DNA from: Acididesulfobacillus acetoxydans
GTDB lineage: Bacteria; Bacillota; Desulfitobacteriia; Desulfitobacteriales; Desulfitobacteriaceae
Length of the DNA: 64,000 nt
Reading direction: 5' to 3'
Assembly (NCBI RefSeq): GCF_902729405.1
Contig: NZ_LR746496.1
Coordinates: 992,001 to 1,056,000 of the forward strand
Made by a program: the position numbers and the translations under genes. Below the pieces are notes generated by a model. It was given only the letters and a program-made list of their open reading frames with translations. It ran no database searches and was not told the origin of the DNA. This document shows positions 58,823 to 59,407 of this stretch, one piece after another. Position 1 is the first letter of the stretch, and every line of letters begins with the position of its first letter.

Positions 58823-58983
58823 TCCTGCCGCAAAGATAAAGCTTACGCGGGATGGGAAAACTTGCGTCAGCCCTGATTTATCCGATGACTCAAACCCTGA
58901 TTTAACCTAAGCCCTGATTCAACCGGAAGCTCGCTTGACGATCAAGGCACCGGCTCAGTTTTCTTGACCGCAGTTTGCGTGCT

Positions 58984-59054
58984 CAAAAAAAGAACTCCCG
59001 CGTCCGGGAGTTTAAAGAGTGTTGCGCAATTGCCTTAATTCCAAAGGTGCTTTT
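58984..59054 (-). ncRNA. Candidate small RNA A (paralogue of B)
   Basis: On the minus strand a promoter, TTGACC (59089-59084), 17 bases, TAAATT (59066-59061), is followed by about 70 bases ending in the terminator AACTCCCG-GACG-CGGGAGTT plus CTTTTTTT (59012-58985). There is no start codon with an RBS in between, so it should be an untranslated RNA. The shared parts with copy B are the promoter, the GCGCAA segment, TCTTT/TTTTT and the terminator. This is a prediction from sequence alone; no RNA family is recognised. Confidence 0.55.
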
Positions 59055-59214
59055 GAAATCAATTTACCATGAACAAGCCTCAGGGTCAATAGAAGAAAAT
59101 CCTGGAAAGAGAACCAATCGGGCGCCAGACTTCGCTGAAGGCGGATTTTCGGCCTAATTTGGTATATGTCAGAAATTTTGTCGGGGTGGGGCTCTTCCCG
59201 CAGATGATTAAGGT

Positions 59215-59284
59215 AAAAAAGTAATCCCCGCGTCCGGGGATCAAAAAAGATTGCGCTAATGTCGGAAAAACAAATTCTTTGTAT
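59215..59284 (-). ncRNA. Candidate small RNA B (paralogue of A)
   Basis: The promoter on the minus strand is TTGACC (59320-59315), 18 bases, TAAATT (59296-59291). The terminator is ATCCCCG-GACG-CGGGGAT followed by TACTTTTTT (59241-59215). The body contains TTAGCGCAATC, like ATTGCGCAAC in RNA A. It is placed 230 bases from A in the same orientation. No other gene is seen in 58823-59407. Confidence 0.55.
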
Positions 59285-59407
59285 AAAAGAAATTTACCAT
59301 GGAAGGCCATGGTTGGTCAATACATCTCGCGAGTAAATTTATGGTAGGGAACGATAAATTGAGCCAAACCCGACATTTACCGGGCGTGAAGCTCGGGGGA
59401 GACCGCC

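Follow-up and report, generated by a model that had tools for sequence, protein, structure and literature searches.

Two tandem cassettes on the minus strand of the window (the whole 64,000-nucleotide stretch of Acididesulfobacillus acetoxydans DNA analysed here) are best explained as genes for sibling trans-acting small RNAs (sRNAs) of an order-wide family, whose core would base-pair with the leader of an S-layer mRNA. We assign this reading a probability of roughly 60%. Our computations established the anatomy of the genes, the family and its covariation, its restriction to one order, a conserved complementary mRNA leader and the co-distribution of the two partners; beyond these, we infer from sequence that the RNAs pair in the cell, that a protein partner takes part and that the message is regulated, with a sign that could be either. 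It is very likely, on sequence grounds, that the cassettes are small-RNA genes of an apparently undescribed family confined to one order of anaerobic bacteria, and both are predicted to be transcribed. Processing of the Acididesulfobacillus RNA-seq set PRJEB64595 kept reads of length 100 or more (PMC10949509).

Each copy has a TTGACC -35 and an extended -10 (TGG-TAAATT), spaced by 18 nt in copy B (promoter at 59291..59320, minus strand) and by 17 nt in copy A (59061..59089, minus strand). The predicted RNAs, each of about 70 nt, span 59284-59214 (-) for copy B, with the start placed 6-7 nt past the -10, and 59054-58986 (-) for copy A, whose start is likewise an estimate. GCGCAA is found in both bodies. 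The core linker of copy B, GACATTAGCGCAA (59251..59263, minus strand), is complementary to UUGCGC-AAUGUC in the mRNA leader described below, with one bulged A, and that of copy A, GGCAATTGCGCAA (59022..59034, minus strand), forms only 9 contiguous pairs with the same leader (AUUGCGCAA with UUGCGCAAU). Terminators of one design (CCCG-GACG-CGGG plus a T-run) follow, with 9 pairs in copy B (59222..59243, minus strand) and 8 in copy A (58993..59012, minus strand), each with a GACG tetraloop and then a U-run. These promoters, the GCGCAA, the strong terminators and the 230-base distance between the copies had all been described in the initial annotation, and each was recovered here, the distance again measuring 230. 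Its further statement that neither copy contains a reading frame held in part: open reading frames of 60-74 aa do overlap the cassettes, but they are mechanical and are not conserved, since 124 nt separate the two units here and a dissimilar 47 nt separate them in genus g3. Immediately downstream of copy A (58869-58925 of the window) lie three imperfect 16-nt direct repeats (AGCCCTGATTTATCCG).

In genus g3, both cassettes aligned by blastn (E 1e-12 to 1e-15) while the spacer did not, which argues against a chance resemblance, and the tandem pair recurs there with its copies in unchanged order and the same DUF2225 gene nearby. The relatives belong to a single Desulfitobacterium/Desulfosporosinus-like order rather than to clostridia at large. 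Body identity was 61% for A-A and 74% for B-B between genera g1 and g3, and 53% for A against B, and the split of A and B is therefore probably older than that of the two genera. Copy B is similar to the type II members of Desulfosporosinus (GACATTAGCGCAA). In more distant blastn matches only the terminator was covered, and reading these matches revealed a common 3' module made up of GAC and (A)UUGCGCAA, followed by a short linker, a GACG-loop hairpin and a U-tail. A pattern scan of 84,980 species returned 16 loci, 13 of which were in Peptococcaceae, Gracilibacter, Paradesulfitobacterium, Desulfosporosinus, Dichloromethanomonas or unclassified Bacillota; those in Pseudoxanthomonas, Achromobacter and one Lachnospiraceae MAG look like chance matches.

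A covariance model of the module (the GACA-UUGCGCAA core, then the terminator hairpin with its GACG loop) detected the family in 58 of the 73 genomes of the order, at 1-5 copies per genome. With the broader model R2 the count in the order was again 58/73, against 0/9 in the sister order and 0/386 genomes in a phylum sample outside the order; weak extra members, close to or under threshold, came from genera g2, g5 and g16. All nine stem pairs were changed on both sides in the 66-match alignment (9/9), 98.7% of cells pair, and covariation was 0.678 compared with 0.297 in shuffles. The loop-closing pair is G-C, A-U or C-G, and the loop is constant (GACG, with one GATG); the same DNA contains 23 further terminators whose loop is 4 nt long, and none of these has GACG. 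A promoter of the form TTGA[CT]-N14-16-TGnTA was present upstream of 44 of the 69 distinct members (0.38 in shuffles), at an almost fixed distance inside each type. The 5' domains of the subfamilies are unrelated, type I having its own hairpin and types II-VII being distinguished by eye, and each subfamily occupies its own conserved locus, so these are stand-alone genes. At the sequence level, then, we found what sibling trans-acting sRNAs call for, at least two related stand-alone genes with their own promoters and terminators. The view of the cassettes as duplicated sRNA genes thus stands, with promoters, terminators, the tandem pair in g3 and the covariance family behind it.

Two further features accompany particular types. 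Upstream of type III-like modules (L104, L126, L133, L136), a recurring stretch of approximately CTTTCTCATGTAGTG follows a GAAAGAC/GTCTTTC-like stem and could be a longer structured RNA. In family f3 (L034, L035, L115 and relatives), a conserved CCAAAACTTAACT precedes the type I -35 by ~25-45 nt and is a possible operator.

Terminator-like hairpins recur, and some family members have no recognisable promoter, as might be expected if the cassettes were not sRNA genes at all but mobile-element ends, REP-like repeats or the plain terminators of neighbouring genes. We consider this very improbable in view of the two copies here and their orthologous positions across genera, the conserved promoter with its promoter-to-core distance fixed per type, and the covariation around a conserved loop. 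A transposon end or REP element in particular was rejected, as the 4.52 Mb genome, a single contig, contains the two cassettes and no third, and these are syntenic between genera. Searches of Rfam 15 at gathering and relaxed cut-offs gave no match for the window copies, their relatives or the leaders, supporting the independence from known RNA families on which the initial annotation had reserved judgement, and nothing matching the family or the leader was found in Rfam or in the literature searched, which lay mostly outside subscription titles.

A candidate target came from searching seven genomes for the complement of the core, TTGCGCAATGTC. This sequence encodes Leu-Arg-Asn-Val (LRNV), which explains most of the many coding matches, and raw match counts were therefore not taken as evidence. 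All seven genomes (7/7) also contained at least one noncoding site, which is orthologous and in each genome precedes the start codon for a secreted protein, by ~150-160 nt in the three genomes measured. Both of the downstream gene products tested have CWB2 repeats (PF04122, 9e-40 and 2e-37). The complement, UUGCGCAAUGUC, belongs to the 5' leader of CWB2 (S-layer type) genes, a strongly conserved stretch of ~300 nt, and so constitutes a conserved complementary site in the candidate target mRNA, with predicted pairing; it was first made out here and is new relative to the initial annotation. Other elements of the leader are GUCUAAAGG, a stem CCACCC/GGGUGG whose two arms change together (CCACAG/CUGUGG), a hairpin GGGGGGACGCCCCC whose loop is again GACG (64/67 leaders) and CCUUUAGAUAUUGCGCAAUGUCUAAAG. 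The SD-like element AAGGRGGUGAG is located ~100 nt before the start codon, with no start codon near it. By eye, a sigma-H-like promoter (AGGAATATT-GAATA) apparently lies upstream. A short upstream ORF behind AAGGGGGUGAG was rejected by inspection, its frame and length varying between genomes. In one genome, two leaders of equal score lie 4.4 kb apart (L276; G014:C3:1182088 and 1186501); this is a recent duplication of the leader, and its gene was probably duplicated too.

The leader of the window's own genome (L220, G000:C1:280237-280362) is outside the window and far from the sRNAs. At E<=1e-3, the leader model detected 53 of the 73 genomes of the order and none of nine in the sister order. 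Both parts occurred in 46 genomes, the sRNA only in 12, which are mostly incomplete assemblies, the leader only in 7 and neither in 17; genus g14 is without both. Fisher tests of this co-distribution gave p=3e-5 over the class and 0.02 within the order, values that overstate the strength of the sRNA-leader link because the genomes are not independent. The sRNA lies ~2.4 kb from the leader gene in G027, G023 and G033. On one contig (G039:C38), a leader gene (L273) was observed between two family sRNA genes (771 and 12190).

Predicted duplexes with the leader site reached -17.1 kcal/mol for the copy A linker (shuffled mean -9) and -16.6 kcal/mol for that of copy B (shuffled mean about -7), and all 69 sRNA linkers fell between -14.8 and about -22 kcal/mol (shuffled mean -7.8), although these energies are not independent evidence, because the leader was found through the complement of the core. 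Moreover, the site is near-palindromic, so that resemblance to the sRNA core and complementarity to it coincide in the leader and are hard to tell apart. The sRNAs might act as decoys that mimic the leader and titrate a protein reading UUGCGCAA and the GACG-tetraloop hairpin, as CsrB does for CsrA. In agreement with this, AUUGCGCAA and a G-C-closed GACG loop are common to sRNA and leader (64/67 leaders; nearly all family terminators), and the two elements stand in different order in the two RNAs, as expected of independent binding sites. The shared GACG hairpin also counts against pairing alone, because it cannot self-pair. Nevertheless, we consider such mimicry unlikely, with several observations favouring pairing. 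The conserved side of the leader is the complementary one: the target-side arm UGCGCAAUGUCUAA is nearly invariant in 67 leaders, whereas one base of the opposite, sense-like arm varies (T53/C7/A7, giving UAUU/UACU/UAAU before GCGC), which breaks its own leader pair, in 14 cases. Where an sRNA type ends with GCGCUU or GCGCC, the shared AA is gone but complementarity to AAUGUC is kept, and type IV, L067 and L013, which have lost the 3' AA, retain GRCAUU, so that pairing length is held; sRNAs with a shortened GACA, in turn, retain UUGCGCAA. In a number of sRNAs the complementarity runs on upstream (UUAGAC to GUCUAA), past the pattern used in the search. Finally, no candidate protein for a decoy was identified. 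A matching change on both sides was seen in a single weak case, G037 (leader AAUAUC, sRNA GAUAUU); elsewhere the U-G intermediate is frequent.

A different division of labour would make the 3' module a scaffold only, serving as terminator and as a dock for a chaperone or RNase, with the variable 5' bodies as the real seeds and the S-layer match secondary. The bodies do differ between subfamilies while being kept within each, with the type I 5' end GAAGAGUCUCUAGAU invariant in 14 sequences, and those of A and B diverge. Hfq is nearly universal, being encoded in the window's genome and across the order (72 of 73 genomes), and together with the U-tailed terminators this would be compatible with Hfq-dependent sRNAs; the GACG loop is not, to our knowledge, a known Hfq motif. 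This arrangement leaves unexplained, however, why an mRNA leader confined to the same order would carry, as a fixed site, the module's exact complement over 11-12 nt, and the complement of the type I 5' end gave about as many matches as a reversed-pattern control, with no conserved site. We regard it as more improbable still than the decoy. The type-II-specific core complement (TTGCGCTAATGTC) similarly matched at about the level of its reversed-pattern control and showed no conserved site. A homodimer through the UUGCGCAA palindrome was set aside, the palindrome not being kept in type II (UUAGCGCAA), as was an anti-terminator in the linker, which is present in some members only.

Under the preferred reading of pairing siblings, each RNA would begin with a 5' part that varies, continue with a linker carrying the GACA-UUGCGCAA core and end in the GACG-tetraloop terminator hairpin. 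In the CWB2 mRNA, whose 5' leader is long and structured, the core would pair with the leader's UUGCGCAAUGUC(UAA), competing with and excluding the leader hairpins built from the same strand. Seen as a switch, coverage of UUGCGCAAUGUCUAA by the sRNA would shift the leader between two folds, the GUCUAAAGG/CCUUUAGAU stem on one side and the downstream hairpin on the other. Blocking the site in constrained folding favoured the upstream GUCUAAAGG/CCUUUAGAU stem (0.71 to 0.83) and changed the accessibility of the SD-like element little (0.27 to 0.31); a leader switch acting on that element was dropped for want of a clear effect. The outcome would be an altered stability or translation of the presumably abundant CWB2 message, in either direction. 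Different promoters and 5' domains would let the siblings bring different signals, or additional targets, to bear on one output and link several conditions to one surface protein, a use of sibling sRNAs of the kind discussed in PMC4211561. The initial annotation had proposed duplicated RNAs with diverged targets. The 5' bodies indeed differ (A-B 53%), but both copies keep a linker core complementary to the same leader, so that their main target is probably shared, while extra targets are possible. The presence of the GACG hairpin in both sRNA and leader suggests a common partner, perhaps a chaperone, and a partner reading this loop in both RNAs would explain the shared hairpin. More tentatively, and with doubts outweighing our confidence, one may envisage an order-wide S-layer riboregulation in which several sRNAs with a two-part 3' module and a switch-like leader are joined by a dedicated tetraloop-reading RNA-binding protein.

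An sRNA and its target can usually be followed no further than close relatives. In the present case both are traceable across the order (22 genera sampled), so that the target, the seed and the evolution of sibling sRNAs become directly testable. The order includes organohalide respirers, sulfate reducers and acidophiles, and we know of little on post-transcriptional regulation in these members. S-layer expression is costly, and the complementary leader suggests how the coat protein is regulated; no description of sRNA control of a CWB2 leader was found in the literature searched, mostly outside subscription titles.

Several known systems invite comparison. In CsrB/CsrA-type RNAs an sRNA titrates a protein, and the hairpin-loop motif is also present in the mRNA leader; here, too, a hairpin-loop motif that a protein could read is common to sRNA and leader. 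CsrB and RsmZ, however, have many GGA loops, whereas the present motif is GACG, with one hairpin per RNA, which places the family outside that class; in type II, GACG is closed by C-G (loop C-GACG-G) and GGA is thereby lost. The CiaR site of csRNAs is a TTTAAG direct repeat, and inspection upstream of either -35 showed none. The csRNAs of streptococci (PMC3091779, PMC8186281) are likewise several related RNAs per genome, some in tandem, with their own promoter and terminator, but their core sequence differs from that of the present family. The sporulation sRNA CsfG was set aside as a lead, the promoters here reading as TTGAC plus an extended -10. LhrC1-5 of Listeria (PMC4132741) is a multicopy Gram-positive sRNA that binds Hfq and the mRNA of a cell-wall-associated protein; it uses three redundant CU-rich sites, in contrast to the single GACA-UUGCGCAA core found here, the site ~150 nt upstream of the start codon and the structured leader. 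The STAB-SD of cry3A in Bacillus thuringiensis (PMC4113751) is also a strong SD-like element far upstream, like AAGGRGGUGAG in the CWB2 leader, but is without structured elements or an sRNA site, and a stabilising role for the CWB2 leader is a guess. OmrA and OmrB of E. coli (PMC4211561) belong to another phylum and share their first 21 nt as well, whereas the common part here, without an Rfam match, is the 3' linker and terminator; as in the two cassettes, they are tandem siblings, of 80-90 nt, with shared ends and a different middle.
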